Virus record (IMG/VR): IMGVR_UViG_3300050343_000027
Span: 1 to 47,610 of that record
Strand: one strand, 5' to 3'
Source: a virus
DNA: 47,610 bases
Numbering within the stretch: position 1 is the stretch's first letter; each line of letters starts with the position of its first letter. The translations under genes and the position numbers were made by a program. Positions 7,015 through 47,609 of this stretch are shown here, one piece after another. The notes under the pieces are model-generated. The model did no database searches. It saw nothing but the letters and a program-made list of their open reading frames with translations, and was not told the origin of the DNA.

Positions 7015-7015
7015 G

Positions 7016-8122
7016 TTAGTCTCCTTGTGTTATAGTTATGGTAGAGTTACCACCACCGTTGACAACTATCTGTGTACTCTTACCGTTTTGTATCATTACA
7101 ATAGTGTAAGCATTTGATTTATCTAAATCTAATTTAATAGTATCTTCTAAAGCTTTGTAAAATGTTATGACGTTATCAGTCATAAAAGTATTTATCTGTG
7201 TCTCACTATCGTAACCAATTTAGTACCTTTTAAATCTATATCAGTTTTTAAAAGTGTTGAAGTTTGGTCTAGCTCGTTTACATCTTCTATAATGTCTAAC
7301 AAGTCTTCAAGAAAGTTTACATCAAGATAATTAATGTCTAACTCTGTAAACTCTAAATTCATCTTCTGCAAGATAGTCTGTTTCTAAATCATCAAACTCA
7401 AGGAAGTCAACATCAAGAAGATTAGTGTTACTCCCTCCATCTTGTCCTTCATTCTGTTTTATTTCCTGTGGTGTATTTACTATTAACATGTTATCAATTA
7501 ACTCAAGGGTCAAGTCAAGGATAACGGGATTAGTTGGTTTAGTTTCAAACATAGAAACTGTAGTAGCTTGGTAAGGCTTGTTAAGAACTACCTGTCCCAT
7601 AGCTGTTGCAACAACAATCTCTCCACTTGGAAGACCGTCATCGTCTGGTAATAATATAACTAGACTTCTACCTAACTCATCTACAGTTACAGTAAAGTCT
7701 GTACCACGAATACCTATCGTAGCACTTGGAGTTTGTATAGATATATTTTCTTTATCTATAGTGCTAACTTACCTGTGATAAATCTTGCAGTACCACTAGC
7801 AAATTGTAAAGCCATCTTAGACTTAGAAGGGTCAGGGTCATAGATAAATTCATCTATAATTAATTCAGAATGCTCAGTCAATCTAACTTGACTGTCATCT
7901 AAAAAAGTAATGCCCAATCTCCCGTTAGAAGTTTGGACATTATCGTAGCTGTTGATGTCTAAGGTCTAGAGAGGCTTGGAAGGTTTCATCTCTTACAACT
8001 CTACCTGTTCCGTTTAGTTCAGTTATGTTGCCTATATTAGCAACCGACTGCTGTTCCCCCATCGTTTTGAATGACACAAATAGTGCCACTAGAACCAGTA
8101 GATGTAATTTGTAACCAGTCAT
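7016..8122 (-). CDS. Secreted FecR-domain protein, frameshifted
   Basis: About 368 residues with an N-terminal signal peptide (LHLLVLVALFVSF, residues 6-18). The FecR core is seen as ITELNGTGRVVRD, LGITFLDDSQVRLTEHSELIID, FASGTARFITGKL and the diagnostic TPSATIGIRGTDF. A long acidic linker follows, and the C-terminal end is Gly/Asn rich: IVVNGGGNSTITITQGD. FecR domains act periplasmically as sensors or scaffolds and are often encoded beside CHASE2 proteins, as here. Indels occur near 7765, 7945, 7340 and 7220. Starting at ATG 8122 overlaps the curlin-like gene by 86 nt, with the export signal coded inside that overlap. The C-terminus weakly resembles a curlin repeat. Confidence 0.82.
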
Positions 8123-8754
8123 TGTCTAAAGTACTCAGTTGTTGTATGTTAAATGTTCTAGAGTTACCTGTTTGATTTAACTTAAAGTAACCACCTGCAT
8201 AACCTTGACCTGTAAAGTTTACAGTATTATCGTTACCATCTACATTTACATCATTGGTTGCATCAGCGTTATTAATATTAAAATCAAATGTGTTACCATC
8301 TACCATCTATAATCCAATCAATATCTGCATTACTTGCTAAAGATGTTGTAGCTAAGTCAAGTGTAAAAGTATTTGTACCACCTGTTACATCTACATTAAC
8401 ATTAGAACCATCAGCACCATAAGTATTAGTAGGGTCTATCTGTACATTAAACACGTTAGTAGAACCATCAAACTCCCAAAAACCTACAAAGTTATCAGCA
8501 GTAATATCTCCTAAGAACTTATTGTTTGACCCTATTTGATTAATATCAATAGTCTGTGTACCACCATCTAAGTCTAAGTGCAGTCATAGTACCAGCAATT
8601 GCATCTGCTCCACCTATAATGTTACCTGAACCTAACTGTTCAGCATCTAATTAAACGTAGCACCTGATTGGTCTATGTATATTTCGTTGTCAGCCCCGTA
8701 TAGCAGCGATGCACTCATCATCACAACTAGGCTTATTAATTTTATTTTGTTCAT
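8037..8754 (-). CDS. Secreted curlin-repeat-like fibre protein, frameshifted
   Basis: Starts at ATG 8754 with a signal peptide (KLISLVVMMSASLLYG) and a mature end beginning ADNEIYIDQSG. Curlin-type strands with Q-x-G-x-x-N spacing recur: IDQSGATFN, EQLGSGNIIGG, IDINQIGSNNKFLGD and LNQTGNSRTFNIQQ. The C-terminus holds a Cys pair (TICVIQNDGGTAVGC). About 238 residues, longer than E. coli CsgA. Family knowledge: such proteins are exported through CsgG and polymerise as amyloid fibres. It lies directly after csgG, overlapping it by 65 nt. Indels occur near 8310, 8570 and 8655. Repeats are degenerate in the middle, so it may form a soluble beta-solenoid rather than amyloid. Confidence 0.75.
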
Positions 8755-9548
8755 ATTTCCAATAGCCTCTCTCTATTCCAATATTTATAATATTTAACAC
8801 TCCAGTCTCTACAGCTTTTTGTAAAGCTATAGAAACACTTTCATTCTCTGATATACCACCTTCTATTTCTACTAGCTCTGTGCCAGTCTCAATAAAACGA
8901 AATACATCTTGAGAAACACTTGTAGATAAAATGCTTTTGGATACTAATGTTTCCATAAGAACTTCACCAGTAGATACAGATACTAACCTTAAAGATATAG
9001 TAACTGTGTCTTCTCTAAACTGTTTACTTGTACCAATACCTAAGTACCTTGCACCAGAACCTCCAGATTTTAGATTAGCTTCATAACTAATCACTCCACC
9101 TTGGACTAACAACCCTGCAAATAACAGTGGTTGCATCTTATTATCTTCTTTAAAATCTTTACGTGTACTACGTATGAGTTGTCTTTCTTTTGTTAGGTCA
9201 TCTAAACCTACACGTTCTACAACTCTAAAAAACTTTCCACCTGCTGTATGCTTAAAAGCTCTAATAAGAAAAGCTTCAGGTGCTTGTGTTACAGCAGTAC
9301 TAAACAAAGCAAAGGTACTGTTACTTCTTCGTCTGTCCTGTTAAATCCCTAAAACTATTAGGGTATATAGCTATCGTTGGTCTTATTTTAGCTGGTGGTA
9401 AATTTCTTAACTCTTCTGATTGTAAATCTAATGTAGAACTAGACTGGACTTTTTTAGTTAAAACTAAATCTCCACTCTCTTGTACTACTGCACAACTAGA
9501 AAGTAAAGTTACCAACAGGCAAAGATATAGTCGTTGTATTGCCATCAC
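8690..9548 (-). CDS. csgG: CsgG-like curli secretion pore lipoprotein, frameshifted
   Basis: Outer-membrane lipoprotein forming the curli export channel. Seen: a lipoprotein signal with lipobox LLSSC (residues about 14-18), FRDLTGQ, then LFSTAVTQAPEAFLIRAFKH, VVERVGLDDLTKERQLIR, GVISYEANLKSGGSGARYLG, VSLRLVSVSTGEVL-type strand (here ISLRLVSVSTGEVL), SKSILS, VFRFIETG, and AVETGVLNIINIGIERGYW. This follows E. coli CsgG almost segment by segment. One indel near 9310-9335 falls in the loop that forms the pore constriction, so eyelet residues cannot be read reliably. The C-terminal tail has a CDDEC pair. Start ATG 9548 or 9545 overlaps csgF by 53 nt. Homology is clear; activity in a phage context is unknown. 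Confidence 0.9.
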
Positions 9549-23492: not shown

Positions 23493-26400
23493 GCTATAAC
23501 GTACCATCTGAGCTAAGTCTATTTAAAACTAAATTAGTATTGCCTGAACGTGTGCTTGTGATTCTACCATCTGCTCTATTTTCAATACCTGCACTACCTA
23601 GTGTTGTATCAGTCTTACCCACAAGCAAGTTACCTGATGAGTCTATTCTTGCTTTTTCAGCTTCTGCTGTACCAAATCTTAAAGCATCAGAAGAATGGTC
23701 GTATGTTACAAAGCCTTGAAAATCATCTCCTGATGTATTCGTATCTGTAAAATGTATGCCTGATGCACCAGTTGCTCCTGCATAAATAGATATTAATTCT
23801 GAGCCTGAACCATCACCTACAGTTAATCTTTGTTGTGGACTACCAGTTCAATTCCAACATTTCCTGCTGAGTCTATTCTCATGGCTTCTGAAAGATTAGC
23901 GGTACGTGTGCTTGAACCATGTACAAAAAATGCTAAACCAACTTGGTCTTCGTCTGATGAGTTTTGAAAAGGAACTATTGCTGCTGATTGGTCATCACTA
24001 GCACCTCCATTTCTACCAAAAGAAATACCAGCACCAAAATTTCCGCTTCCAGCAGTTGCGTTTTCATTGTTTATATGTAGACCAGTGTGTCCTGAGTTGT
24101 AAACTAAACTTGCATTTCCTGTACCAAAAATGACTGTTTTTAACATTACTAGGAGAACTGGTAGTGCCTCCTACTAGCAGTTGACCATTTGAGTCTATTC
24201 TCATTTTTTCATCAGCATCTATTTCATAAACAATTCTTGTGCCACCTTGAGTATTACCAGCATCAGCTTGAAGGGTTAAATGTCCACCATTACCTGAGAT
24301 TTCTGAATAACCACCGTCTGTATCAGTAATTCTAAACCTTGGATTTGCTGCCGCTAATTCAAGCTCTCTATTTGGCGAATCAGTACCAATTCCAACATTA
24401 CCTGATGAGTCTATTCTCATGGCTTCTGAAACTGCTGTATCATCTCCTGCTGTATAAAATGTTAAAGAAGTTGCAGCATTAGCATCAGACGAGCTTTCTC
24501 TAAGTGCAGCAATAGCAGCACCCTCTTGTGTTGTTTGGTTGCCTTCAGGCACATAAAAAGAAAGTTTAGTACCATCACCTGCAACAAGGTCGCTTATTTC
24601 AGGGGATTCTGTTACTTGCAGTCTTAAGACTTCTGTAGGAGTACCTGTTCCGCTTGTAGATAATGTTTCTATGTGTAAAGGAACACTTGGTGAAGTCGTT
24701 CCAATTCCAACGTTACCTGATGAGTCTATTCTTACAGACTCAGAACCGTTGTTTTCAAACGAAGTGTACCCGGTTGTTGTATTGTTGATTACAAAACCAC
24801 CAGTAGAGTTTGTATATAAGAGCTTTACACGCTCTGCACCTGATTGGTCAAACGATATTCCACGCTCACCAGAACCTGTTGAGTTAATTGACAAGAGCTG
24901 GTTTGGCGAATCAGTGTCAATTCCAACGTTACCAGCTGAGTCTATTCTCATGGCTTCTGCACCACCTATACTAAATGATACAGCACCGTTTCCAGAGGTA
25001 ACGTTAAAATTGTGTCCTGCATCAATAGAGGCTGTATTAAAGCTAGATAACTGTAGCGGTCTTGTGTCAGTAGAGCTAAAACTAGCGTATATTGAATTTG
25101 TTGTTGGAGCTACTACATCTAAAGGGGCATCAGGCGTAGTAGTACCAATACCCAATCTCTCAGCACTTGCATCCCAGAATAAAGCTGCAGTTGTGCCTGT
25201 ATTTTCGTAGAAAGATATGTCGTTGTTAGATTGTATTTTTAATAAATCTTTTTGGTTTTTATCTTCAATAATAAAACCAAAATCATTAGCGTCACTTACG
25301 TTGGCTTTTATGTTATATCCATTAGAAGTACCATCGTCTGAACGTAATTGTATAGTTGTAGAATCTGCCCTTACAAGTGCTGTACCATCAATAGTCAAAC
25401 CATCAGCAGTTACTGTTCCTGTTACGTCTATACCTGTTGAGGTTGTTTCTAGTTTTGGTGAGCCATCGTAATGTAATTGTGATTTTCCATTACTTACAAA
25501 CCTAGCCATGTAGTCTGAACCTGAATCACCTGTAACCTGAATTTCAGTTCCGTTTGTTCTAACTTCTAAAACGCCAGTCCCTTCTTCACTTATTATTGAG
25601 TTAGTTCCTGAGTGATAAATCTGTAAATCTGAACCAGTTCCGAAGATGGCTTTGTCATTATCGCCAAAGTTTATGTCTGCTGAAGTTGTTAAACCTGTAA
25701 GAGTACCAACGCTAGTTATGTTTGGTTGAGCTGCTGTAGCTAGTGTGCCTGTAATGTTTCCTGAAGATTGAATAGTACCTGTAATGTTTATATTACCTGT
25801 ACCTGTAATGTCATTAGAGTTTAAATCTAAATCACCACCAAGCTGTGGAGTTGTATCTTCAACAACTTCATTAGTTGCAGCAACTGTAGTATCTACATAA
25901 GCCTTTACAGACTGCTGTGTAGGTATAAGAGTTGCACTATTAGATACCATGTTGTCTTCATCAACAAAAGCTGTAGCAGTTATTGTGCCATCGTTAAGAC
26001 TACTAAGTGTTTTATTCGTTAAAGTCTGTGAGCCTGTAAGTGTTGTTACTGTACTATCAATTGCAAGAGTAACTGCATTACCTGTTGCAGAACTATCAAG
26101 ACCTGTACCGCCTGATACAGTTAATGTTTCACTATCTAAAAATTGCAATCTGTTGTAATGCTAAGTCTTCTGCAGTAATCTGTGTCTACCACTGTCTTGT
26201 ATGTTATCGTAACCTTCTGTCAATTAAGCTTTAAAATTATCTACTTCTGATCTGTATTGTTATCAACATCTATTGTTTTATTTGTAAGAGTCTGTGTGCC
26301 TGTTTGTTACTGTATCTATATTACATAGTATTCCCTGAACCTACAGTAGCTAAACCAGTCCCACCAGCGATTGTAAGGCTCTCTGAGTCGAGGTCAATGC

Positions 26401-26918
26401 TTAATGCACCACCACTATCGCCTAAGAAATCTAAGTCCTGTGCAGTGACTTGAGCATCGATATAAGCTTTTACAGATTGTTGAGTTACTAAAGATGTAGC
26501 ACTATTAGAACTTAAGTCATCTTCATCAAGTACTGCTGTAACGGTAGAACCCGTTGCAAGTACTCTTTAAACTGTAAAGTCTTTGAATTGTAAAGACTAG
26601 TACCTAAGTCTACATCGTTATCTGTAACAGGTACTATAGCTCCATCAGCTATGTATAAGTTGTTGTACAGAAGTTACTTGATACTTCTACATAAAACTCT
26701 ATATGGTCGTTTGTTGTATCTATTAAAACTTTGTTAAGTGGTGTAGCTAATCCAGCATCACCAATTAAACCTATACTGGTCCTTCGTTTGCAGTACCATC
26801 GTGTTTATGACCACTTGTATTCAAAAGCATTTAAAAGTTGATTGTACTCATTATTAAATAATGCAGCAGTAATTGTATCTCCATCTGCGAATGTACTTTG
26901 TCTTGTATAACCTGCCAT
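23493..26918 (-). CDS. Tail fibre protein with GNVGIGT repeats, frameshifted
   Basis: Host-recognition fibre of about 1140 residues. The N-terminus (MAGYTRQSTFADGDTITAAL, then FNNEYNQLLNAF) is the usual tail-attachment start in marine podoviruses. The shaft has TGSQTLTNKTL and STTPQLGGDL-type strands, then at least six copies of a (M/V)RIDSSGNVGIGT-x-SP-like repeat, typical of trimeric beta-structured fibres. One continuous frame spans 24064-26148; the N-terminal third (26150-26900) has many indels, and two more lie near 24130 and 23845. The C-terminal end is uncertain: the frame stops at 23493, but the +1 frame runs about 40 nt further. It lies directly after the gp10-like tail gene. Confidence 0.8.
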
Positions 26919-26923
26919 TGTGT

Positions 26924-28475
26924 TTATCTCCTACCTGATGGAATGTAATCTATGTATAGTCCGTTTATTGTGTATGGTGCGTTTGTATCGTTTGTTAATA
27001 TTCTAAAGCTATTAGTGTAACCACTACCTTGTAATGCTAACCTAACTAAAGGTTGTTCAGATGCTCCAAACTTTGCAGAACCAAATAAAGCTGTATGGTT
27101 GTGGTGTATCTTACTATCGTAATCAAATCTAACTCTTAATGTAGGTTGTGCTCAATCCTTCTGGACCTATAGAAATTTTAATAGTGTAAAGTTTTTAAAG
27201 TTCCTAAGTCTCCATAATCATAATCAGGTGTTTGATATCTTGCATCTATGTTTTACACCATCAAAAGTATTACCTAATTATGATTATAAACATAACCATC
27301 TCTATCACCATGATAATACTTTTCAATCCATTTTATCAAATCCTGATGTTATTGCTGTAACTTCTATCCTAAAGTTTCTGACCATTCAAATCCATTTGGT
27401 CTTAAGTGTTCCTATAATTCCTTTTTGTGAAGCATTAGAATCAAGTCTGTATTGTATAAAATAATCTATATTGTGATTTTTCTCTAATAACAACACTACT
27501 AAATTGTAAGTTGTCATTGCTTTCTTGCTAATTCTGTTATAATAGGCTGTATAGCTTTACTAACTGTTCCTAACTCAACGTCACCAATTCTTGCTGTACC
27601 AGCAACTGTTCTTAATCCATCAGGTGCTAAGAATATTAAGTCACCACCAATCTCTTGAATACTGTAACCACTTAAACAACCTACGTTTTTGCAACAGGTA
27701 CAACTTGCTATAGTAGAACATTATTTATGTTTATAATTTATGAAATGAGTTTTCACAAAATATAAATAAATCTTTACGGAAACCTTTAATACCTACTATT
27801 TGGTCTGATATAGTTACTAGCACCTGCACCTGTACCACTAAAAGTATCTATGGGTCATTGTAACACTATAGTAAATAGTATTTAAGGTTATCTTTACTCC
27901 AGCAGCTATTAAATGATGGTCATGTACTGTACAAAACTTAGCTTTAGTTCCTGTAACTGTTATTTCTTCTGTAAAAAATGTTCTAGTGTTTAAAGCACCT
28001 GTACCTTCCATTCTAAAACTAAAAGGTTTTTACTCCATCAGCTATAATTAACTTCACCATAATCTTGTAGCACCTTCAAACATTGCAAACTCACATTGTC
28101 CTTGTTAGTTCTAGCTGTAACACTTTTACCTGTAAAGGTTGTGTAGTTATCTCCACTACTATGCTAGATAGCTTTATTTATCTGTAACCAAGCTAGTTCC
28201 ATCTTGACTAAAATAATATATTAGTACCTACACAGCAACTACACCATCTGCATAAATAACTACCTAATATAGTTGTTAGTGCTTCCTTAGGTTTACTGAA
28301 CTTCCTCCACCAAACTTAGTATATCCATTAATACGTCTATATCCACCTTCTATAGAGACTTCAAAGTTTCTTAACTTCTGTAGCTACTCCGGGTGTTTAA
28401 GTAAAGTCTATAGAGTTAGCTGATTTACTAATCCACCTGCTACATGCATACGGTAAAAGGTTGTGAACGTGCCAT
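26924..28475 (-). CDS. Tail tube / packaged-DNA-stabilisation protein (gp12/gp10-like), heavily frameshifted
   Basis: About 515 residues if reconstructed. Start ATG 28475 (MARSQPFTV) overlaps the previous stop as TAAATG. Readable islands include NFEVSIEGGYRRINGYTKFGGG near the N-terminus and, at the C-terminus, KIHHNHTALFGSAKFG, GSGYTNSFRIL and APYTINGLYIDYIPSGRR. The last is the typical APYTI-G-x-x-IDY-x-P-x-GRR ending of P22 gp10-like and T7 gp12-like tail proteins. Many one-base indels destroy the middle, the worst-read stretch in the window. Role: tail component below the portal. I cannot decide between the two families. Confidence 0.6.
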
Positions 28476-29240
28476 TTAAAAGTAAGTTCTATCGTCTGTC
28501 ATATATTTAGGAGCTGGATTCATAAATTAGATTTCATAGTACTTCATCCTTTTTTATAATCATCCAATGCAAAAGCTGCTTGTTGTGGGCTTTCTTTAAA
28601 CTGCCAAACATAATATCTTGCTTTAGCTGTTATTACATTACTATATTGCTCTGGTAAAGTAATTGTATCATCATGTGCTGATAAGCTTGTAGGTCTTTCA
28701 AAAGCATAAAAGTGTACGTTATAAACTTTATCAGGTATTGGACTTAATCCAAACTTTCTGTGTCTGGAGATTTAATAACAAACTTAGGTTCTCCATGGTT
28801 TTGAGTATCTGCATCATCTGCATTTTCACTGTCTCTGTAGTATCTTTTCCAATCTGTAAGTGTAAGAAACTTTAATCCTTTAGAGACATAAGGAGTTGTT
28901 TCTCCACTTACGTTAATTGTTGTAAATAAAAATCATCCCAATCTATTGATGCATAGTCTGTAGTAATACTAGAACTATCAGCTTTAAAGTGTACCATCTT
29001 GTTCCTGCAACTGTAGCTACTGTTACGTTACCATAAAAAGGGTCAGTAGCTCCACTTGCTCCTGCAGCAAAAAAAGGTAAGTTGTGGTTCTTCGTTGGCT
29101 ATATCAAATATAGATTTATTAATAGCTATCTTTTACAAACTTTTGAATACCTGTAGCGTTTCAAAGTTTGCAGAAGTTAAAGGAACTTCATTGAGTTCTC
29201 TTAGTACTTCGTTAGTTATGTCAAGATATGTTGTAGCCAT
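28476..29240 (-). CDS. Head-tail connector / tail tubular protein A-like, frameshifted
   Basis: About 250 residues reconstructed from ATG 29240 (MATTYLDITNEVLRELNEVPL, then TSANF). Seen further on: FVKDS, SIFDIANEEPQ, ASIDWDDFYL, LKFLTLTDWKRYYRD, PDKVYNVHFYAFERP, TITLPEQYSNVITAKARYYVWQFKE and a final DDRTYF. The order and spacing recall phage gp11-like adaptor proteins. At least five indels interrupt it. It overlaps the small upstream gene by 1 nt (TAATG) and the downstream tail gene by TAAATG. The product links portal and tail; assignment rests mainly on gene order. Confidence 0.6.
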
Positions 29241-29386
29241 TATTTTTTATGAACCTTTTGAATTGGAAAGTTTGCTTCTAAACTTGCACCTTTATGTTTT
29301 ACAAACTTACCTGTGTGTTTCATTAATTTAAACGTACCATTTTTTTGTTTCATCCAATGGTGTCCTTTTGGTGCTTTAACTTTCAT
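29240..29386 (-). CDS. Small basic protein downstream of capsid gene
   Basis: 48 residues from ATG 29386 (MKVKAPKGHHWMKQKNGTFKLMKHTGKF). Very Lys/His-rich, with a repeated G-x-F/HKG-type turn (GTFKLMKHTGKFVKHKGA). Follows another small gene by 1 nt and overlaps the connector gene at TAATG. Small basic proteins near the capsid gene may bind packaged DNA or act as cement, but I see no motif. Confidence 0.5.
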   Translation of the reverse strand: MKVKAPKGHHWMKQKNGTFKLMKHTGKFVKHKGASLEANFPIQKVHKK

Positions 29387-29387
29387 A

Positions 29388-29532
29388 TTAGTTAGCTTTA
29401 GCTTTTGGTGTTCCTTTATATACAGGCTGACATCCGTCCATCTTAACATCTCCACCATATACCATATAGTCCACCCATGCTTTTTTTCTTTTATTCCATT
29501 TACATCTTTTTTTTTTTATCTTTACCGTACAT
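29388..29532 (-). CDS. Small Lys-rich protein, frameshifted at an A11 run
   Basis: About 48 residues from ATG 29532 (MYGKDKKKKDVNGIKEKKAW). The raw sequence has 11 A residues after GAT in the coding strand (29506-29516 on plus) and stops three codons later; with 12 A residues the frame runs on to a stop at 29388-29390 (VKMDGCQPVYKGTPKAKAN). A Shine-Dalgarno AAAGGAG lies shortly before the start, immediately after the terminator. A likely homopolymer miscount, or a slippery site. Confidence 0.5.
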
Positions 29533-29544
29533 ATTTTATTTTCT

Positions 29545-29578
29545 CCTTTAAAAAGTGGAGGAGTCCGAAGACTCCCCC
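29545..29578 (-). terminator. Intrinsic terminator after the major capsid gene
   Basis: On the minus strand, GGGGGAGTC - TTCG - GACTCCTCC forms a 9-bp stem (one G-U pair) with a UUCG tetraloop, followed two bases later by TTTTT. It begins 12 nt after the capsid stop. Very strong, classic Rho-independent form. Placing it directly after the capsid gene parallels the T7 late terminator after gene 10, which sets capsid mRNA levels above those of tail genes. Confidence 0.88.
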
Positions 29579-29590
29579 GAGTTTTGACAA

Positions 29591-30565
29591 TTAGTCAATT
29601 ACGTAGAATGCACTACATAAAGCGTCATCTCTAAGTACTTTCGCACCATAGACATGTAAGCCTCTTACTATATCACCAAATGATGATGGGTCTCTCAACA
29701 CTTCAGTTGAAAGAATAGTATTAGCAGTAGCAGTTGATGAAATGTGACCAGCCATACATTTACCAGTAGCATTAGATGTAGCAGCAACATTGTTAGATTT
29801 GTACATGTCAAATCCTCTTAGTTTACCACTTGATACTAAACCATTTCTGATAGAACCTTGTCCAGCGTTAAAGTCAACAGACATTAAGTTTAGAGTCAGC
29901 TTTAGCTAATTCTTCATAGAATGAAGGAGGAGCAACGAACCATCTACCTTCTTCAGGTACATTCTGTTCGTCTAATAGTTTAGCCAATCTAGCCATAAGG
30001 TCAATTGCATCTACACCAGTTCCGTCTGAACCTAGTAGGTCTACAGAGTTAGTTGCGTGTCATAAGTTGCATCAGCAGTTGCACTGTCTGAACCAATGAT
30101 GTGGTCAGGTGATGAAGCTGAACAACCAGCAAACATAGTTGCTAGAACAGCAGCATCATATGCATCTTTAAGAGCATACGCAGCAGATGATGAAGCTACT
30201 TCTTTGAAGTTGACATGTGACATTTTAGTTTCAATATCATCTACGATGAATTTGAAAGCTTTAGCACTATCAACAACAAGAGTTGTTTCTTGCATCAGTT
30301 AGTTTAGTTGCAGTTGTGTCAGAACCTCTTGTATAGTCAGATACAGAGATTACTGGTTCACCAATGATTTTTACAGAGTCTCCAAAAGCAGATATCTCAC
30401 CGGCATAGTCGGTGTTAGTAATAGCTTCAACTACACTTGCCTTTCTAAAAAGTTTAAAACTTTCTTAGAGTATATGGAAGGTAGGAAGAAACTATTAGTT
30501 TGTCCACTTACGGAGTTTGCAAAGTTTGCATTAGTATCAGTTGAGGGTTCAAAAAATTGAGCCAT
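29591..30565 (-). CDS. Major capsid protein, frameshifted
   Basis: About 325 residues from ATG 30565 (MAQFFEPSTDTNANFANSVS), preceded by an AAAGGA ribosome-binding site. Segments in order: FFLPSIYSKKVLNF, VVEAITNTDYAGEI, GDSVKIIGEPVISVSDYTRG, TTLVVDSAKAFKFIVDDIE, a helical region with AYALKDAYDAAV, LLDEQNVPEEGRWFVAPPSFYEEL, and a C-terminal VLRDPSSFGDIVRGLHVYGAKVL. This is the HK97-fold layout of phage coat proteins of the P22-gp5 / marine podovirus type. At least four indels (near 30450, 30295, 30050, 29885). Followed by a strong terminator and preceded by the scaffold gene, as expected. Confidence 0.8.
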
Positions 30566-30590
30566 GATATTTTCCTTTAAGTTATAATAG

Positions 30591-31463
30591 TTATTTTACG
30601 ATTCTGCCTTCTTGCATTGCATCTGATATTTCTTTTTCGTATTTATCAAATTCAGCAATACTCATTGCAGCAATCTCCTTTTCAGACCAAACCTTTTGTT
30701 GATTAGGTTCTATACTTTTTGTTTTAGTAGAAACCATATCAGCAGCAGATTTTCTAGTCGGTTTAGAAGATGACTTAGTCTTTGGAACATCAATTCCAAA
30801 ATCCTTTTTAAACAAATCTAAAGCACGTGAAGCTAGGTCAGCATCGTCAGCGTTTGATATATCCAGTCTTGGATAGACTTAGGCTGTTCTTTTGCCCAAC
30901 CATGAAAGTCATCACTGTTTCTGATATCTTCAAAATCAGGATGTCTTTCCATTAACCTTTTTTCTGCACTCTTGTCGTACTAAGTTGTTTTCACGTTCTT
31001 GGAGTTTACTAAGGCGTTCTTCTAGAACTTTTGCTTTAGTCTCGATTGCAAATGAGCAACGGTTTCTACGACTTCGTAAACATCAGGATAGTTATTTTTA
31101 AACTCTTCTAGTTCTTCTGGAGATTTAGGAGCTTTGTATTCGGTTCTATTACTAGTAGCCTCTTCAATTAACTCTTGTTCTCTAGATTTAAACTCGTTAA
31201 GTTTACTATCGTAATGCTTTTTTAAATCATCATATCTTTTTTTATAGTCTGGTTTCTTATAAGGAGTATCCAGATTTTCTGTTTTAACATTATCTGTAGA
31301 CTTAACTTCAGTTATGTCATCACTATCAAAGAGTTTATTCTTTTCAGAAGGCTCTTCAAAATATAATTGATTAGCAGGGGTAAAAGGTTTATCTTCTACG
31401 TGTGTAATCTTTTTTTGCGTTATAAGGATTCGCTTGTTCTTCCTGTTGGACTGTATTAGTCAT
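30591..31463 (-). CDS. Scaffold/capsid assembly protein, frameshifted
   Basis: About 290 residues from ATG 31463 (MTNTVQQEEQANPYN). Almost wholly Glu/Lys-rich helix: KKRYDDLKKHYDSKLNEFKSR, then KVLEERLSKLQERENNLVRQ, and RHPDFEDIRNSDDFHGWAKEQ. The helix-turn-helix C-terminus (EIAAMSIAEFDKYEKEISDAM) resembles the capsid-binding end of podovirus scaffolds. Lies 25 nt upstream of the capsid gene. Indels near 31415, 31050, 30975 and 30865. It opens with a structured repeat-rich leader at 31464-31590. Confidence 0.72.
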
Positions 31464-31590
31464 TTTCTATTCTCCTACTCAGGGCTTGTTTCACAAGGTA
31501 GCTCTATGTCGACTAGAGGGCTTGTTTGTAAAGGTAGCCTTTCGGTTATTAAAATGATAAAGTGCCTACGCTAATAGGGTAGCTTTATCG
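31464..31590 (-). promoter_or_regulatory. Structured, repeat-containing leader of the scaffold-capsid genes
   Basis: Non-coding. On the minus strand two imperfect units of GCTACC-TTnnnA-AACAAGCCC occur about 41 nt apart, and a third GCTACC lies upstream. Inverted repeats are GATAAAG...CTTTATC (31556-31589, with inner CTAC/GTAG pairing) and CTCTA...TAGAG around a GTCGAC core. No TTGACA/TATAAT promoter is visible. May be an RNA processing, stability or regulator site. Confidence 0.45.
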
Positions 31591-31690
31591 TTAGTTTGTT
31601 TAGCTTCTTAGGATTAACTTTTAACATTGCTTTTACGGATTTCTCTTCTTACTCATCATAGTCATAGGTTCTTGGACAATTCTGGTCAAG

Positions 31691-32236
31691 TTAATAAACT
31701 TTCAGTCTTTTGGTAGACATTAACATTCCACCTTCAGCTAAACCTTGTCTTTCATCTGCTTTAGCTTCAGCGTCTTTCATCATAGACATTAAAGTGTCTT
31801 CTCCGATTTCTTCTACAGCTTTTGCAGTAAAGACAAATTCTCCGTCAGATAACCTTGCAGGTATACTGTCAGAGACTCCTGAACCCGGTCCTTCAACAGG
31901 ACCAGACCCAGCAAATTCTTGAGCAACATCTATTATCTTATCAAATAACATAGATAGTTGTTCATCTTGTTCTAGTTTGGAAGTTAGCATATCTTCTTCT
32001 TCTTCACTTAATGCTTCTTCCATTATAAATCTTGTGTAGTTATCTTCCATGTCATCAGATTCCATTTCAGATTCCATTGGTGGTGTCATAACCATTAACA
32101 TTTGGTCATCCATTGAACCACCTTCTTCGTAACCCATACGTTCAACAACTTCTGGTGCTTCTTTTCTAAGAGCTTCTATACCCGGACCACCGTCTTTCAT
32201 TCCATATCTGTCTTGGTCTCATTCTTTCTTTTTCAT
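31691..32236 (-). CDS. Acidic virion-assembly protein
   Basis: About 181 residues from ATG 32236 (MKKKE), with one indel near 32220 before DQDRYGMKDGGPGIEALRKEAP. Acidic and Met-rich (MESEMESDDMEDNY; SEEEEDML), then GSGPVEGPGSGVSDSIPARLSDGEFVFTAKAVEEIG, a Gly-rich SDSIPARLSxGEFV motif found in phage proteins encoded between portal and scaffold. Overlaps the previous small gene at TAATG. The C-terminal end is uncertain: sequence from 31690 down to about 31575 reads as protein (KAMLKVNPKKLNKLTI) in a shifted frame, so the gene may be longer or followed by a tiny gene. Confidence 0.6.
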
Positions 32237-32377
32237 TATTGTTTCGCCTTACCTACGTTTAATGCACACCAGTCTAATATTCTGTAAGCTTTCCTACCCA
32301 TACATCGTCTTTGGTGTAGGTGTAAGAGAACAAATTAAAGATGCTCCCATTACTATAGATGGTATTACCGCTATCAT
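32236..32377 (-). CDS. Small hydrophobic protein, frameshifted
   Basis: About 47 residues from ATG 32377 (MIAVIPSIVMGASLICSLTP): one hydrophobic segment with a Cys (lipobox-like SLIC) then, after one indel near 32305, DDVWVGKAYRILDWCALNVGKAKQ. Stops at TAATG overlapping the next gene and starts 2 nt before the portal stop. No known family; a small lipoprotein or membrane peptide is possible. Confidence 0.45.
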
Positions 32378-32378
32378 A

Positions 32379-34649
32379 TTATTCGTTTTTGTGTTTTATA
32401 AAACCTAACATATTATTATCCCTCTTGTTTTCTGTTAATTGCTTCTTTAACCTGTTGTCCAGTTGCTCTAACCGTACCAGAGAACTCACTTCCCCTGCAA
32501 CCGGTACATTTCCTGTTCCGATGTTGCCACCGCCAGTGCCTGTAGCTCCAAGTTCTTGAGGTTGTTGAGGTACTCCTTCAGGTCCTCCCATTGGGGGCTG
32601 TTGACCACCGGGTTGAGCTTCCTCGCCATTTGTTTGTCCAGCATTTTGCATTCCTATTATTTGTGCCATGATAGCAGCTTCTTCAGGGTCATTGAGTATT
32701 TCATCAGGGTCTAAGTCTAAGCTGTAGGCAAGTTCACTAACGAGTTTAGAAATCTTAACAAACGGAGCAATAGCAGGACTTTGTGCAGTTTGTAAGAACA
32801 TAGTAAGTCTTTGACTTCTAACTTCTTTCTGCATCAAGCTATTTGTTCCAGTAGCCTTAACTTCTAAATCACCTTTAACATCCAACTCATCTTCTAAGAA
32901 TTGCATGTTCCACTGGAAGTAAGCTTCTCCTAGTGGCTTTAATAAAAAGTCATCAAGGTTTTTGATAACTGTTTTAATATTTAAACTTGATGCTCCAAGT
33001 AACATAGACATACCAGAAGCAGTCCTTGTCATACTTTGAACACCTGTTTGTCCGTGTGAGTAACTAGGTATACCTGTTTGTTCATCTGCAAGTTGTCTAA
33101 ACTTATCAAACATCATTAAGTTTTCTTGTGATGTATTAGGAAACTTTAAACCGTGTATAGCTTGTCCCGGCATTCCAGCTTGTCTTCTAAAGACTTTACC
33201 CGGATATATTTCCATTGATTGTCCACCTACTAAAGCAGACTCATCTACATCAAACACTAGAGAACCAGACATTGCTAAGTTATCTATAGCCATTCTTGCA
33301 TGACCATTCATAATCTGTTGTGAATCATCCATGTTCTCTGCTACACCAATACCAAAGAAGTTATATGGGTTTCTTTCGTATGGGAAAGCGTTGTATGGTA
33401 TTCTATATGGAGTAAATGGATTAAGTACAGCTCTTAACAAGTAAGTACCACATGTCCATATATTTACTTGTACTTCATCTAGGTCATCAACGCTGTCGGG
33501 TAAGTCAATACCTACTTCTCTGCATACTCTGCATCCATCATTCCCCAGTATTCTAAGACTTCAAACTACTATTTATATCTTCGTCACTTCTAGCATCGTC
33601 TTTTAACTGGCTTTCAAAATCTTTTTCTACGTAGTTAGCACCCATTTGAATTGCATTACGTATTGCATCATCATCAAAGTAAGGCATGTTACGTAACTGT
33701 CTTAATTGACTTCTGTTCATTTTATGTCTATGAATAATATATTCACATTCTTCCATGTTAGTAGCGTTAGGGTCTGGATAAAAATCCCAACAACTAACAA
33801 ACTCTATTCTAGGTACTCTAACTTCTAAAGGGTTATAAGTTCTGTTACCTTCTTCGTCTGTATCCCACTTGTGAAGTTTCTTGTTAAAGTTAAATGGTCC
33901 TTTTACAATCCCTGTACCTAGTAAAGCAGATTCTAAAAGAGCATTTCTTATTTCAGAGTTACCATTTGATTCTTCTATTTGGTCATGGATAAGTTTTTCC
34001 ATTCTTCTTGCAGCTCTTTGTGCAGGAGATACTTCTATTTTTTGTGGGTCAGGACTTGCTACCATCTTTAAGAATACCAGCTTCTTCAGCTTGGTCTTCA
34101 AGACTATCTTCAAACATACCGTTATAAAAAGTAGCACCGGGTTTTAAAGTTCTACCATCTCCTTCATAACCAACATCATATGGATTAGGTTCGTCTCTAA
34201 TCTATTACCAATGTCATCTGGTATTTCAGCTTCTGTAGTTTCTAAACCGGGTGTAGGATTAGCTGTATCAAGATGTGCAAAGTTTGTTTCACCTTCAGGT
34301 ATTTTAGTTTCAGCAATTCCTATAGGAAACTTACCTGTACCAAAGATAACATCAACAAGCTGTCCAAAAGCTGCTAGTACTTTAGTCTTAGTAACTTTTA
34401 CAAATACTCTAGACTTTTCTGATTCTCTAAACTTAACACTTTTAGCATAAAGACCTCTATAGTTCTCATAAGCTTTTAACCAACGAGTCTCGTCAGTTTG
34501 TCTAGCTTCTTCAGCTTGCATAACTACCTTTAATAATACCAATAAGATTTCTTTGTTGGTCTTCTTCAAAGTAAGTTTACTCCAGACTCACCTTCAACTT
34601 CTTCGTAGATGCTATCAGCGTTTAAAAATGTATTTCTATCTTCTGCCAT
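32379..34649 (-). CDS. Portal protein, frameshifted
   Basis: About 756 residues from ATG 34649 (MAEDRNTFLNADSIYEEVEG). Recognisable segments: RWLKAYENYRGLYAKSVKF and KVLAAFGQLVDVIFGTGKFP (N-terminal), a middle with EIRNALLESALLGTGIVKGPF and PRIEFVSCWDFYPDPNAT, then NPFTPYRIPYNAFPYERNPYNFFGIGVAENMDDSQQIMN, MMFDKFRQLADEQTGIPSYSHGQTG and TASGMSMLLGAS, all characteristic of large podovirus portals. Length is close to P22 gp1 and larger than T7 gp8. The C-terminus is Gly/Pro/Gln-rich. Indels near 34575, 34200, 34060, 33550 and 33440. It forms the dodecameric vertex for DNA passage and lies directly after the large terminase gene. Confidence 0.82.
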
Positions 34650-37537: not shown

Positions 37538-37712
37538 TAGTGTACTATCCTTTTCTTTGTTTGGTCATCGTGTTGTAGTTCTTGGATCTCTCCTAAACTA
37601 ACAACCCATATTGTATTGCTATTCTATTAGCTTGTGCAACTGTATCTGCTTTAATGTATGGACCTATTGCAGCTCCATCTTCATTAACATGTTCAGTTAT
37701 CCAAAGTTTCAT
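37537..37712 (-). CDS. Small hypothetical protein, frameshifted
   Basis: About 58 residues from ATG 37712 (MKLWITEHVNEDGAAIGPYI), with KADTVAQANRIAIQYGLLV and, after one indel near 37603, GEIQELQHDDQTKKRIVH. The stop overlaps the next gene start (TAATG) and the start overlaps the small terminase end by 4 nt. The W-x-x-x-x-x-x-E-x-G...A-x-A-N-x-I-A pattern is common in small phage proteins encoded by terminase genes; role unknown. Confidence 0.5.
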
Positions 37713-38116
37713 ATTCTAGCATCCTCTGCTTCTATATCAATCGTATGTTTTTCTGGTAGTATAAAGATACCACCACTAACATTATGATTAACATCTAGCT
37801 TATCTGTCTTAACAACACCAGCCCTATCTAGTATCGTCTGTGCAGCTTGTAACTTGTTGTTAGCTTGGGGAACAGGCTTATCAGATTTCATAACCTCTAT
37901 AAGCTTGAATGCTGCAGTAGGGGCTTCCCTTGCAAGTACGTCACTGGCTAAATCCACTACTTCGTTTTTAAGTGCTTTTAATATTTGATAGTGATTGCCT
38001 GAATACCCTGCAAGTTCGGCTGACTTTTTGAAATCCCCACCAGTGTCTACTAAGTGATTCAAGAATGCTTCTTGTTTCTCAGTTAGGTTTCTCTTCTTTT
38101 CTGGTAAGTAACTCAT
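37709..38116 (-). CDS. Terminase small subunit-like protein
   Basis: 135 residues, intact. N-terminal NLTEKQEAFLNHLVDTGGDFKKSAELAGYSGNHYQIL is a helix-turn-helix of the terminase small subunit type (EKQ-x-x-F...A-x-x-AGY). The middle is LASDVLAREAPTAAFKLIEVM, and QAAQTILDRAGVVKTDKL is the usual oligomerisation and C-terminal motif. It begins the late operon, recognising the packaging site before the large subunit takes over. The start ATG lies only 6 nt after a perfect -10 box, implying leaderless translation. Confidence 0.82.
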   Translation of the reverse strand: MSYLPEKKRNLTEKQEAFLNHLVDTGGDFKKSAELAGYSGNHYQILKALKNEVVDLASDVLAREAPTAAFKLIEVMKSDKPVPQANNKLQAAQTILDRAGVVKTDKLDVNHNVSGGIFILPEKHTIDIEAEDARI

Positions 38117-38122
38117 GGTATT

Positions 38123-38151
38123 ATTATATAGTATCTTTTAAAGTTTGTCAA
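38123..38151 (-). promoter_or_regulatory. Perfect sigma70 promoter of the late operon
   Basis: On the minus strand TTGACA (38151-38146), a 17-nt spacer and TATAAT (38128-38123). The small terminase ATG is at 38116-38114, so the transcript start falls at or within a base of the A of ATG: a leaderless mRNA. No other late promoter of this quality was found, so it may drive the late unit with host RNA polymerase. Confidence 0.85.
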
Positions 38152-38188: not shown

Positions 38189-38217
38189 TTGACAAAATTG
38201 AAAAGTATGTGTATAAT
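38189..38217 (+). promoter_or_regulatory. Perfect sigma70 promoter facing the origin and early genes
   Basis: TTGACA at 38189-38194, 17-nt spacer, TATAAT at 38212-38217. Divergent from the late promoter, -35 boxes 37 bp apart. The first good coding start downstream is 38955, so the transcript would have a leader of about 730 nt running through the repeat cluster. It may prime replication or yield a non-coding RNA as well as early mRNA. Confidence 0.82.
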
Positions 38218-38382
38218 AAAGTTGAAAACGTCCCCCGGTTTAAATACCTACATAAGCCCCACCCTAGTCCTTCTTTATTATCCCCAAACTAACACTAACA
38301 ACTATGAAATATTAGGAGTTATTCTGTGTTGTAAAGTATATAAAAGCTTATGAAGTTTTTAAAGTTTTAAAGCTTTATAAAG

Positions 38383-38408
38383 CCCAACTGGTTAATACCA
38401 CTATTGGG
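38383..38408. other. Nested hairpin in the control region
   Basis: CCCAA-c-TGG-ttaata-CCA-cta-TTGGG pairs as two stacked stems. There is no following T-run, so it is not a typical terminator. It lies in the long leader of the rightward transcript. Confidence 0.5.
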
Positions 38409-38435
38409 TAGAAATGTATAAGATTTATATATATA

Positions 38436-38468
38436 CCCACCCACCCCCCGTGTGCATCCTGCCCCCCC
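38436..38468 (-). other. G-quadruplex-type tract
   Basis: Plus strand has C runs of 3, 3, 6 and 7 (38436-38438, 38440-38442, 38444-38449, 38462-38468); the minus strand therefore carries four G runs of at least 3, with loops of 1, 1 and 12 nt. Striking in a genome of this base composition, and next to the proposed origin. Confidence 0.6.
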
Positions 38469-38501
38469 TACTTTAAAAACTTATAACAGGATATCAACAA
38501 C

Positions 38502-38620
38502 TTATCCACTTTTAAAGTGTGTCATGTATAACCTGTGGATAACTCTGTGGATAACTTTATAACTTTACAAGCTTGAAAAGTGTCATACTCCCCTTTAAAA
38601 GTGTCATACTTTACAAGCTT
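38502..38620. other. Candidate replication origin: DnaA-box-like sites and direct repeats
   Basis: TTATCCACT at 38502-38510 and two TGTGGATAA (reverse of TTATCCACA, the perfect DnaA box) at 38534-38542 and 38546-38554. The direct repeat AAAAGTGTCATACT occurs at 38576-38589 and 38597-38610, with a degenerate copy near 38513. CTTTACAAGCTT occurs at 38563-38574 and 38609-38620. The flanks are AT-rich. DnaA boxes imply use of host initiation proteins, unusual for a phage that also encodes T7-type primase-helicase and polymerase. Confidence 0.6.
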
Positions 38621-38696
38621 ATCAAGTCTAGTTTATGCCCCGTGAAAAGTTAATTAAGTGTAAAGTTTACTTTACAAACTTCATAGACTTTGAAAA

Positions 38697-38846: not shown

Positions 38847-38877
38847 TTGCATTCTCTTTTTATATTGTGCTTATAAT
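38847..38877 (+). promoter_or_regulatory. Weaker promoter just before the early genes
   Basis: TTGCAT (38847-38852), a 19-nt spacer and a perfect TATAAT (38872-38877). The spacer is longer than ideal. Transcripts would start near 38884 and reach the first early gene at 38955 after about 70 nt. In the 38117-38954 stretch I see no protein gene. Confidence 0.4.
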
Positions 38878-38954
38878 AGGGCATGAAAACGAAAACAAGC
38901 ACTTATCAAGATGTCAAGTACACTTTACAGTGCATAACAAAAGGGAATATTATT

Positions 38955-39236
38955 ATGAAAACATTTAAACACACACCAATAACAAATGATGATACAGATT
39001 ATTTTGCATTGTCTTTAATAGATAGAGGGTTAGCAAATACAAGGGCTTTAAAAATAGCCGAGGGATTAAGAGCTAACGATTGGGACAAGGTAGCGAGTGC
39101 AATTTGCAACTGTGACTGTTCTAACTTTAAAAGACTTTACAAGATAGAAGAACGATTAATGTACTTAGCTAGTGAGAAAGGTAATGCAAAAGTTATATTA
39201 GATAGAATTAATGAAATCAAAGAGGCTAAATTATGA
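38955..39236 (+). CDS. Early hypothetical protein
   Basis: 93 residues from ATG 38955, chosen over an in-frame ATG at 38883 because AAAGGG lies 8 nt before it. Content: DTDYFALSLIDRGLANTRAL...AEGLRANDWDKVASAICNCDCSN with a Cys pair and a helical C-terminus (SEKGNAKVILDRINEIK). No recognised family. It is the first gene of the early unit, so it may be an early host-takeover protein. Overlaps the next gene by 4 nt (ATGA). Confidence 0.6.
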   Translation: MKTFKHTPITNDDTDYFALSLIDRGLANTRALKIAEGLRANDWDKVASAICNCDCSNFKRLYKIEERLMYLASEKGNAKVILDRINEIKEAKL

Positions 39237-39612: not shown

Positions 39613-40266
39613 ATGAAGATATCAAAGGTTGGAAAATTAAACAGTCGCAGTTGGTCGCTTGAAGCGTTGGAAACTTGCCCCGCTTCTAAAGGCTCAGATG
39701 GGGAACTTGTCCCCGCTTGTAAGGGTTGCTATGCAGTAGGCGGGAACTATCGTTTTAAGAACGTTAAAGAAGCTAGAAGCCACAATAAAAAAGATTGGCA
39801 AAGGTCGGAATGGGTGGCGGATATGATAGAGGAGTTAGATTCTGATAGATATTTTAGATGGTTCGATAGTGGCGACATGTACAGCCTAGGATTAGCTGAA
39901 AAGATATATGAGATTTGCAAGGCTACACCATGGACAAGGCATTGGATACCCACAAGAATGTATAAGTTTAAGAAGTTTAGAGATGTTATTGATAGGCTCA
40001 ACGCTCTTGAAAATGTTGTTGTTAGACTTTCAAGTGACGGTATTAACGGGGAAATAATAGAAGATGCTCAATACTCATCAACTATAATACCCTTTATTGA
40101 TAGCGTTACAGTTGCGACTATATGTAATGCACCGCTTCAAGATGGCAAGTGTAAGAAGTGCCGTTTATGTTGGGATAAATCAACAAAAGTTATAGCATAC
40201 GCAGGACACGGGGCGAAGATGAAGAAACAACAAAGAGAACTAATACAAGTCATGGAGGTGGCATAG
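39613..40266 (+). CDS. Gp88-like cysteine-rich protein
   Basis: 217 residues, intact. Starts after AAAAAAGGAG at a suitable distance. The N-terminus (KLNSRSWSLEALETCPASKG, then CKGCYAVGGNYRF) and a C-terminal cluster (CNAPLQDGKCKKCRLCWDK) give seven or more Cys residues arranged like a metal or Fe-S-binding protein. The N-terminal CP...C-x-x-CYA signature is that of the phage 'gene product 88' family. The family has no firmly known function; the cysteine layout hints at metal binding or redox. It has a more G+C-rich, differently composed codon pattern than its neighbours, consistent with recent acquisition. Confidence 0.7.
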   Translation: MKISKVGKLNSRSWSLEALETCPASKGSDGELVPACKGCYAVGGNYRFKNVKEARSHNKKDWQRSEWVADMIEELDSDRYFRWFDSGDMYSLGLAEKIYEICKATPWTRHWIPTRMYKFKKFRDVIDRLNALENVVVRLSSDGINGEIIEDAQYSSTIIPFIDSVTVATICNAPLQDGKCKKCRLCWDKSTKVIAYAGHGAKMKKQQRELIQVMEVA

Positions 40267-44216: not shown

Positions 44217-45880
44217 ATGGATAAAACTTGGGATAAGCTACACCAACCCTGTCCACTTTGCAACAGTAGTGATGCTGTAGGAATCAACGAAGATGATTCA
44301 GCAAAGTGTTTCAGTTGTGGAGAATTTATGCCTAGCTATACTAAAGCATGTGGAGGAAAGGATATGCAAACAGCAACAACAATAACCAACTAAACAACCT
44401 GATGTGGTAGATGAAGGAAAGTTTTCAGCCCTTACGGACAGAAAGATTTCATGCACTGCTCAGAAGTATGGGGTTAAATGTGTACATGACTTACAAGGTA
44501 ATGTAGTTAAACATTTCTACCCTTACTATAATGGGCATGAGTTATCAGCTACTAAGTTCGTAACTGTAAAGGACAAAGACTTCTTTGTATCTGGTAGTTA
44601 TAATGATACAGGTTTGTTTGGTCAACAACTTTTCAAGGGTGGTAAGTATGTTACCGTTACTGAAGGGGAGTGTGATGCTATGGCTACTTATGAACTCTTG
44701 GTTCTAAGTGGGCTGTAGTATCTATTAAGCGTGGAGCAAATGGTGCAGTAAGAGATATCAAGGAAAGCTTAGAGTTCTTTGATGACTTTGAAAATGTTAT
44801 CATTGCATTTGATAAAGATAAGGCAGGACAAGAAGCTAGTATTAAAGTTGCTAGACTTTTCAAACCCGGAAAGGCTCGTATAGTTACACTTACCTAACGG
44901 TTGGAAAGACCCTAACGATATGCTAAGAAACAACAAGCATAAAGAGTTTGTTGAAGCTTGGTGGGCTAGTAAAGTTTATACACCTTCTGGTGTTATAAAT
45001 GTATCTGAACAGCGTGAGAAGTTTCACAATCGTGAGAAGAAACAAAGCGTACCTTATCCTTATGAAGGACTGAACAAGAAATTGTATGGTCTTAGAGCAG
45101 GAGAACTTGTAACACTTACAGGTGGTACTGGTCTTGGTAAGTCAAGTGTTACAAGAGAACTTGAACATCATCTTATTAAGAACACTACAGATAACGTAGG
45201 TATCATAGCACTAGAAGAAGATTGGAGAAGAACCATTGATGGTATCTTATCTATTGAAGCTAACGCTAGGTTATACGTTGACCAAGAACGTGAGAAGTTT
45301 TCTAAAGAAGAATTAGATAAGATGTTTGATATCTCTATGATGGTGAGAACAAGAATAGAGTATGGGTTCATTCACACTTTGGTACGAATGACATTGATGA
45401 TATCTTTACTAAGCTTCGCTTTATGATTATAGGATGTGACTGCAAGTGGGTGGTCGTTGACCATTTACATATGTTAGTCAGTGCAGTACATGAAGGAGAT
45501 GAGAGACGTGCCATTGATACTATCATGACTAGACTAAGAAGTTTGGTAGAAGAGACAGGTGCAGGAATCATTTTGGTTTCACACTTACGTAGAGTTGATG
45601 GTAACAAAGGACATGAGAACGGTATTGAAGTATCTCTATCTCATCTAAGAGGTTCTAATAGTATTGGACAACTTAGTGATTGTGTGATAGCATTAGAACG
45701 TAATCAACAATCAGATGACCCTGATGAAGCTAGGACTACAAGACTTCGTATCTTAAATCTAGGTATACAGGAGATGTAGGTATGGCATGTAGAGTTATAT
45801 ATGATGCAGAAACTGGTAGACTATCTGAACTATCAGATGATGATATAACCTTTGATGCTAGTTTAGATGAGGCATTTTAA
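44217..45880 (+). CDS. T7 gp4-like primase-helicase, frameshifted
   Basis: About 553 residues. Zinc finger CPLCNSSD...CFSCGE at the N-terminus; TOPRIM-type primase core with KYVTVTEGECDAMATYELL, VVSIKRGANGAVRDI and VIIAFDKDKAGQEA (acidic metal site); then the hexameric DnaB-type helicase: Walker A GGTGLGKSSVTRELE, the GIIALEEDW strand, CDCKWVVVDHLHMLVS (Walker B-type), GAGIILVSHLRR and LRGSNSIGQLSDCVIAL. The C-terminus is short and acidic. At least six indels (near 44390, 44712, 44893, 45345, 45415, 45770). The stop overlaps the polymerase start (TAATG). Start ATG 44217 has GAGG upstream; the GTG at 44205 is an alternative. Confidence 0.87.
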
Positions 45881-47609
45881 TGGACTTAGTATTTGACATA
45901 GAAACAGATGACTTAAAAGCAACTCTGGTACATTGTATCGTTGCTCAAGACATGGACACTGGAGAGATATATAAATATCCACCAGATAAATTGAAAGAAG
46001 GTTATGAACTGTTAGCTAATGCAGATACTTTAATAGGACATAACATCATCGGATTTGATATACCAATGGTAGAGAAGTTCGGTGGTGTTGACTTGTCAAA
46101 GATACCAGTCATTGATACTCTTGTACTATCAAGACTGTTTAATCCTAACAGAGAAGGTGGTCATAGCCTTGAGAAGTGGGGATATAAATTAGGCTATCAT
46201 AAGATAGACTTTCTCAGACTATCTTAATTATTCTAAAGAGATGATGGACTATTGTGTTAGAGATGTACAACTCAACGCTGTAGTATTAAAGAAACTTAGA
46301 GAGGAGAGCAAAGGATTCTCTAAACAATGTATAGCTATTGAACAAGGTGTAGCTAGGATAATGAAACAACAAGAAGTAAATGGTTTTAAGTTTGATTTAC
46401 AATCAGCTTTGTTATTACTTGCTGAACTTAGAGAAAAGAAACAATCCATTGAAGATGAAGTTCATAATACATTTAAACCTAAATGGGTAGATGATAAGTT
46501 AGTTAAGCCTTACATTAAGAAAGATGGAGACTTATCTAAGCGTGGACTTACAGATGATGAGTATCAAAGATGTTTAGATACAAATAACTTTGAACCTTTT
46601 ATGAGACAAACACTACAAGACTTTAATCTTGGTAGTCGTAAACAGATAGGAGAATATCTTATTGACTTTGGTTGGAAGCCTGAAAGGTTTACACCAACAG
46701 GTCAACCTATAGTAGATGAGAAAACTCTATCAGCAATCACACACATACACGAAGCTAAACTTATAGCAGACTTCTTACTACTTCAAAAGCGTATAGCTCA
46801 AGTTGATTCTTGGGTTGAAGGAGTACAAGAAGATGGTAGAGTACATGGCTTTGTAATACCTAACGGTGCTATCACAGGAAGAATGACACACAGGAATCCT
46901 AACATGGCACAAGTACCGGCAGTCTATAGTCCTTATGGTAAAGAATGTAGAGCATGTTGGACTGTAGAAGAAGGTAATGTTTTAATCGGAGTTGATGCTT
47001 CTGGTCTTGAGATTAGAATGTTAGCTCACTACATGAATGACGAGGAGTACACAAATGAAATTCTCAATGGAGACATACACACCGCTAATCAAAAACTTGC
47101 AAACCTTGAATCAAGAGATAAGGCAAAGACATTCATCTATGCACTTATGTACGGAGCAGGAGATGAAAAACTTGGAAGCGTGGTCGGAGGAAGTACATCA
47201 GATGGTAAGAGAGCTAGACAATATTTCTTTGATAATAAGCCTACATTTAAGTCTCTTAGAGACAGAGTACAAAGAGCTTCAGCAAAAAATTACCTCAAAG
47301 GATTAGATGGTAGGAAGCTATATGTTCGTAATCAACATTCAGCATTGAACACTTTACTACAAGGTGCAGGTGCTATCGTAATGAAACAAGGATTGGTTAT
47401 ACTAGATGAGTTGTTAAATTAAATAACATGGAATATAAATTCGTAGCTAACATACATGATGAATGGCAGATAGAAGTTCCTAAGTGTCATGCTGATAAGG
47501 TAGGGCAATTAGCTGTAGACAGTATAGTAAAAGCAGGAACACATTTTAATCTTCGTTGTCCTTGGATGGCGAATACAAGATAGGAGGTAACTGGAGTGAA
47601 ACCCATTAA
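45880..47609 (+). CDS. Family A DNA polymerase with 3'-5' exonuclease, T7-type, frameshifted
   Basis: About 576 residues. Exonuclease motifs: VFDIETD, HNIIGFDIPM and YCVRDV near residues 4, 53 and 122. Polymerase motif A is VLIGVDASGLEIRMLAHYM, motif B RDKAKTFIYALMYGAG, motif C ANIHDEWQIEV. In motif B the position equal to E. coli Phe762 is Tyr, as in T7 polymerase. Frame breaks near 46218 and 47420, and one near 47565 by a missing T. Ends with GGNWSETH and TAA at 47607-47609, leaving one base in the window. It appears complete. The gene starts by TAATG overlap with primase-helicase. Joining the window ends puts it immediately before the nuclease at base 1. Confidence 0.92.

Follow-up and report, generated by a model that had tools for sequence, protein, structure and literature searches.

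The uncultivated virus record IMGVR_UViG_3300050343_000027, a marine phage (47.6 kb, analysed along its whole length and called the window here) carries an array of DnaA boxes between its late and early genes, which we hold with high confidence to be real, oriC-style and not due to chance. The array represents one variant of an exchangeable cassette of about 180 bp, and the exchange is observed among close relatives. It is best read as a genuine DnaA-binding array, the binding itself being predicted. Tentatively, its most likely role would be that of an accessory replication origin; a close rival places its role at the genome end.

The window and its late/early junction

An HTVC103P-like polymerase, packaging genes and gene order place the window in the HTVC103P-type pelagiphage group or among its group IV neighbours. 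Parts of its portal/capsid region share 74-77% DNA identity with the Pelagibacter phages HTVC103P, 104P and 115P, and its family-A polymerase is 52-54% identical to the HTVC103P/115P counterpart. Relative to HTVC103P the genes are circularly permuted, the polymerase reaching the right end and a nuclease gene coming first at the left. The window encodes the gene set of a T7-type replicon, namely a Gp2.5-type SSB, a T7-type primase/helicase (phrog_239) and a family-A polymerase (phrog_17), so that the coexistence of DnaA boxes with a gp4-like primase-helicase and a T7-type polymerase, pointed out in a first-pass annotation, is borne out. Such replication genes are joined with HMO-2011-type packaging genes in the HTVC103P group and the neighbouring "group IV" (PMC8528129). 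No match to a single-subunit RNA polymerase was found among the window ORFs scanned, and none is annotated in HTVC103P. Conserved genes of the window are often broken by apparent frameshifts (26100-32400, 44404-46227 and elsewhere), resembling an uncorrected long-read assembly; because so many genes are split in this way, single bases need caution.

The features considered are the following.

37709..38116, minus strand: terS, terminase small subunit, last gene of the late leftward block (PHROG 2538/51 with weak E-values; synteny with HTVC103P terS)
38123..38151, minus strand: sigma70-like promoter P_L (TTGACA-17-TATAAT) for terS and the late block (from sequence; kept in relatives)
38189..38217, plus strand: sigma70-like promoter P_R (TTGACA-17-TATAAT) (from sequence; strongly conserved among relatives)
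38388..38396, plus strand: left bracket CTGGTTAAT (CTRGTTWAT motif)
38411..38470, plus strand: conserved core of AT-rich GAAATGTATAAGATTTATATATATA, G/C tract and TGCATCCTGCC (in nearly all relatives)
38481..38510, plus strand: forward DnaA array in 11-bp phase, with degenerate TTATAACA, ATATCAACA at 38491 and TTATCCACT at 38502 (sequence, alignment, spacing)
38534..38542, minus strand: perfect DnaA box TTATCCACA (sequence scan)
38546..38554, minus strand: perfect DnaA box TTATCCACA, 12 bp from the preceding one (sequence scan)
38563..38620, plus strand: tandem AAAAGTGTCATACT (38576, 38597) and CTTTACAAGCTT (38563, 38609) (exact repeats)
38628..38636, plus strand: right bracket CTAGTTTAT, where the swappable cassette ends (CTRGTTWAT motif)
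38847..38877, plus strand: promoter-like TTGCAT-19-TATAAT directly 5' of the first early gene (inferred from sequence)
38883..39236, plus strand: first early gene, no assigned function (ORF)
44404..45779, plus strand: T7-type primase/helicase (phrog_239; broken into several ORFs in this assembly)
45880..47422, plus strand: family-A (T7-type) DNA polymerase (phrog_17; broken into two ORFs)

The boxes lie in the 766-bp gap that separates terS from the first early gene, the point from which the late block runs leftward and the early block rightward. Two perfect TTATCCACA and one TTATCCACT (38502-38510, plus strand) fall inside 53 bp; TTATCCACN occurs at these three places only within the window, and the perfect box nowhere else in it. 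This cluster exceeds chance: dinucleotide shuffles of the intergenic region gave a mean of 0.008 perfect boxes, and none of 5,000 reached two. Boxes with at most one mismatch are at chance level across the whole window (19 found, 14.7 expected), so the signal lies in the clustering and not in the total count. The first-pass annotation had described both the three clustered 9-mers, two of them perfect, and the tandem repeats, and the scan and shuffles uphold the former while the latter prove exact, with two copies each of AAAAGTGTCATACT (21 bp apart) and CTTTACAAGCTT. It had missed two further sites, ATATCAACA, phased 11 bp upstream of 38502, and a degenerate site at 38481 which reads TTATCAACA in aligned relatives.

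Several other candidates were set aside. TTATACACA at 38208 overlaps the -10 element of the conserved promoter P_R and was rejected as a DnaA box. The cumulative GC-skew minimum falls at the junction, where gene direction switches as well, and was rejected as origin evidence because it is confounded by gene direction. A copy of a host oriC was rejected since the 30-mer array is absent from all genomes searched; a looser phased triple array is common across bacterial genomes, with no Pelagibacter among the matches listed.

The leader driven by P_R, a strong promoter, (38189-38330) begins with a conserved AAACGTCCCCCGGTT-like sequence, and in L005, L022, L028, L037 and similar relatives it is followed by a terminator-like hairpin and T-run, which suggests that P_R may yield a short noncoding RNA. 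A structured RNA in the junction region was rejected: an Rfam scan of the region gave no match, and the leader folds no better than shuffled sequences. Elsewhere in the window, an early gene at 39613-40266 has GP88/DUF7227 domains. A CHASE2-adenylate/guanylate cyclase gene (split) and a CsgG-like gene lie on the minus strand at 5278-9307; their nearest phage relatives are in the myoviruses HTVC008M and Melnitz (OM43), suggesting an accessory cassette acquired by transfer.

An exchangeable cassette among relatives

With the window terS protein as query, we retrieved 80 IMG/VR loci. Six near relatives with the array, 30-50 kb long, have no perfect box outside this junction region; in a seventh record, G011, two boxes lie near the region and a third lies elsewhere. 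Intact copies read TTATCAACA-gg-ATATCAACA-gc-TTATCCACT on the forward strand, with 2-bp gaps, followed by two reverse boxes 12 bp apart. Across 50 distinct cassettes, a set of related and not independent sequences, same-strand DnaA-like sites are spaced by 11, 12 or 22-23 bp, with nothing else between 9 and 40 bp. Sites in the same direction are thus helically phased, and opposed arrays are present. The divergent relatives L065, L102, L105 and L161 carry arrays of their own in the same slot, that of L065 consisting of TTATACACA-ac-TTATCCACA and one reverse box and that of L102 of three 11-bp-phased pairs. Outside the cassette, L064, L066, L069 and L070 have phased DnaA boxes (TTATCCACAACTTATCCACA) about 730-760 nt from terS, 5' of the early gene.

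The comparison with close relatives which the first-pass annotation had proposed gives a divided answer: boxes are present in many of them, but L009, L016, L019 and L021 have other repeats instead, and the junctions of the cultured HTVC103P, 104P and 115P lack DnaA boxes. Slicky01, a cultured relative by its polymerase, likewise has a divergent intergenic region without a DnaA cluster.

The array occupies the roughly 180 bp between CTGGTTAAT and CTAGTTTAT. The bracket motif CTRGTTWAT has only two copies in the window, 240 bp apart and flanking core and cassette; in near relatives the spacing is about 237-245 bp, and longer in some. The segment from core to CTAGTTWAT mostly measures 165-181 bp; a few are shorter (near 143-156 bp) or longer (near 190-228 bp), and two measure 260 bp. 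The scaffold of L016 and L021 is 96-97% identical to that of the window, yet their cassettes have no DnaA boxes and match the window's at 67-70% identity, about the level of shuffled sequence (mean 64%). Because such near-identical relatives carry non-DnaA cassettes, the array is not essential across the group. The repeats in non-DnaA cassettes include TGTACAA-N-TTRTACA, ACAYTTGTC, ACTTTACAAAGTTTGTCAAG and GGTACARSAC, and a GTGTCATACT pair recurs in relatives, non-DnaA cassettes included.

Neither neighbouring gene accounts for the cassette type. TerS is 97-98% identical across phages with different cassettes, so the cassette was rejected as a TerS-binding site. The first early gene was rejected as a cognate regulator since it does not follow cassette type, being common to L019 (non-DnaA) and L007 (DnaA).

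The conserved core and the packaging genes

Adjoining the cassette is a core composed of an AT block, a G/C tract and a GCC motif (near TGGCnCCTGCC). We found it in the divergent junction of the cultured HTVC103P, 104P, 115P and HTVC033P, and in that of HMO-2011 and CRP-1, -9, -13, -207 and -603, similarity being judged partly by eye. It is present in all checked phages with HMO-2011-type packaging genes, even CRP-9 and CRP-13, which have Cobavirus-type replication genes, and absent from all three cobavirus-type phages checked (CRP-4, ICBM2, MEP402). Strict rules derived from these sequences match the window, CRP-1, -13 and -603 and HMO-2011 and, under a second rule, CRP-9, once each and at the junction; the second rule also gave one unrelated match inside C72C1. 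The core is not merely linked to terS, because in the roseophages the two are several kb apart. In the cobavirus ICBM2, the corresponding junction holds 159-bp direct terminal repeats; a T7-like strategy is described for this phage (PMC6775973).

The core is thus probably a packaging or terminus site rather than part of an origin or an unwinding element, because it follows the packaging genes and not the replication genes. Its AT block adjoins the boxes but belongs to this core. Duplex stability has a local minimum at 38410-38434, beside the G/C tract, and less stable DNA than the AT block exists elsewhere in the window.

The G/C tract (38436-38469, beside TATATATA) keeps its position among relatives while its strand flips, giving C-runs, G-runs or palindromic mixes (L009, L022, L044, L065 and L072 were examined), and several contigs end inside it. 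A fixed cos end was rejected, as contigs stop at different bases and long contigs cross the tract. The contig ends of L010 and L015 are poly-C or poly-G, and assembly or sequencing dropout is the likelier cause of such stops.

Possible roles of the array

Phage DNA is already known to carry DnaA boxes. T7 has a primase/helicase, SSB and family-A polymerase related to those of the window, but only a single isolated box (at 8255); its primary origin consists of two T7 RNA polymerase promoters and an AT-rich stretch. SP6 has no box. The earlier statement that T7-type replicons do not normally use DnaA agrees with these two phages, but it is qualified by clusters at or near the genome ends of the enterobacterial T7-type phages phiEap-1 (L285, 1-200), P483 (L286, 740-900) and ZK1 (L287, 1-230). 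These resemble the window in that several copies of TTATCCACA occupy noncoding DNA at, or close to, the end of a T7-type genome, but their flanks are unrelated and their spacing is not of the 11-bp oriC type throughout. A literature search covering non-subscription papers returned no paper describing DnaA boxes in T7-type phages, these three clusters included.

In E. coli oriC, low-affinity sites lie exactly 2 bp apart and two arrays face opposite ways (PMC4451416). The window array likewise combines consensus boxes, 2-bp gaps, an opposed second array and nearby AT-rich DNA; it differs in being viral, having fewer sites and lying beside T7-type phage replication genes. The cultured HTVC103P-type and HMO-2011-type isolates checked share its scaffold of divergent promoters, AT block, G/C tract and GCC motif, and the HTVC103P type the bracket repeats too, but they have no DnaA-box cluster at the junction.

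As an accessory origin, the array would be loaded with host DnaA along its forward low-affinity sites, ending in TTATCCACT; DnaA would also occupy the two opposed strong boxes, forming an oriC-like complex. It might then melt the AT-rich DNA nearby, after which the phage primase/helicase, SSB and polymerase would take over. In relatives lacking DnaA boxes, a different DNA-binding protein would act at the cassette. Because the gene blocks diverge at the junction, forks leaving it would run with transcription. For this reading we count the three TTATCCACN in 53 bp, the confinement of the relatives' boxes to this region, the phasing and oriC layout, the arrays of divergent relatives, the stability minimum and the diverging gene blocks. 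Against it we count L016, L021, HTVC103P, 104P and 115P, whose lack of boxes means that DnaA is not required group-wide, and the AT block not being the window's least stable DNA; the reading of the core as an unwinding element is weakened because it tracks the packaging genes, not the replication genes. To our knowledge, DnaA loading is not known for T7-type primase/helicases. The arrays suggest that DnaA serves some of these phages in replication or in a different early step. If they do recruit host DnaA, host cell-cycle control would extend to their replication or entry, unlike in the DnaA-independent T7 paradigm.

The close rival, somewhat unlikely in itself, is that the region is a packaging terminus and that DnaA docked just inside it governs the entry of DNA, the protection of its ends or its packaging; a role of this sort has been proposed for the T5 injection-stop region (ISS), which has been discussed as having DnaA boxes (PMC13250531). 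We found box matches inside the terminal repeats of T5-like phages; as in the window, these boxes lie amid repeats in a noncoding terminal region, although the phage class differs, with a large terminal repeat and two-step entry. A genome-end role also gains from the core being common to phages with the same packaging module and different replication modules (modules: PMC8528129), from the ICBM2 terminal repeats, and from the placement of the phiEap-1 and ZK1 clusters within the first 250 bp and of the P483 cluster near terL. Near-complete contigs, however, run through the site, and the cassette varies while TerS hardly does, so that it is not a TerS site.

An arrangement spanning both roles is possible, though we regard it as doubtful: a fixed terminal element of about 240 bp with an exchangeable docking cassette, in which phages with nearly the same terminase would swap cassettes binding different proteins for the same job at a genome end or origin. 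Host DnaA would serve the window lineage, and other proteins the TGTACAA, ACAYTTGTC, ACTTTACAAAGTTTGTCAAG and GGTACA repeats.

Transcription control or DnaA titration seems improbable. The boxes, lying between P_R and the first early gene, could block or tune P_R or early transcription, or could slow host initiation by serving as a decoy, as multi-copy high-affinity boxes would titrate DnaA; but a promoter-like site of its own precedes the early gene, cassettes swap independently of that gene (L019 vs L007), and there are only about five sites. Chance or lineage-specific drift without DnaA function, to which the AT-rich, repetitive region and the close relatives without arrays might point, is very improbable given the cluster probability, the phasing, the specificity across relatives and the recurrence in divergent lineages.

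Nearly identical phages with DnaA and non-DnaA cassettes form natural pairs in which the question can be tested directly. That DnaA-box clusters recur near the ends of unrelated lytic phages merits a systematic look; more than 50 further viral contigs also carry phased DnaA-box arrays.
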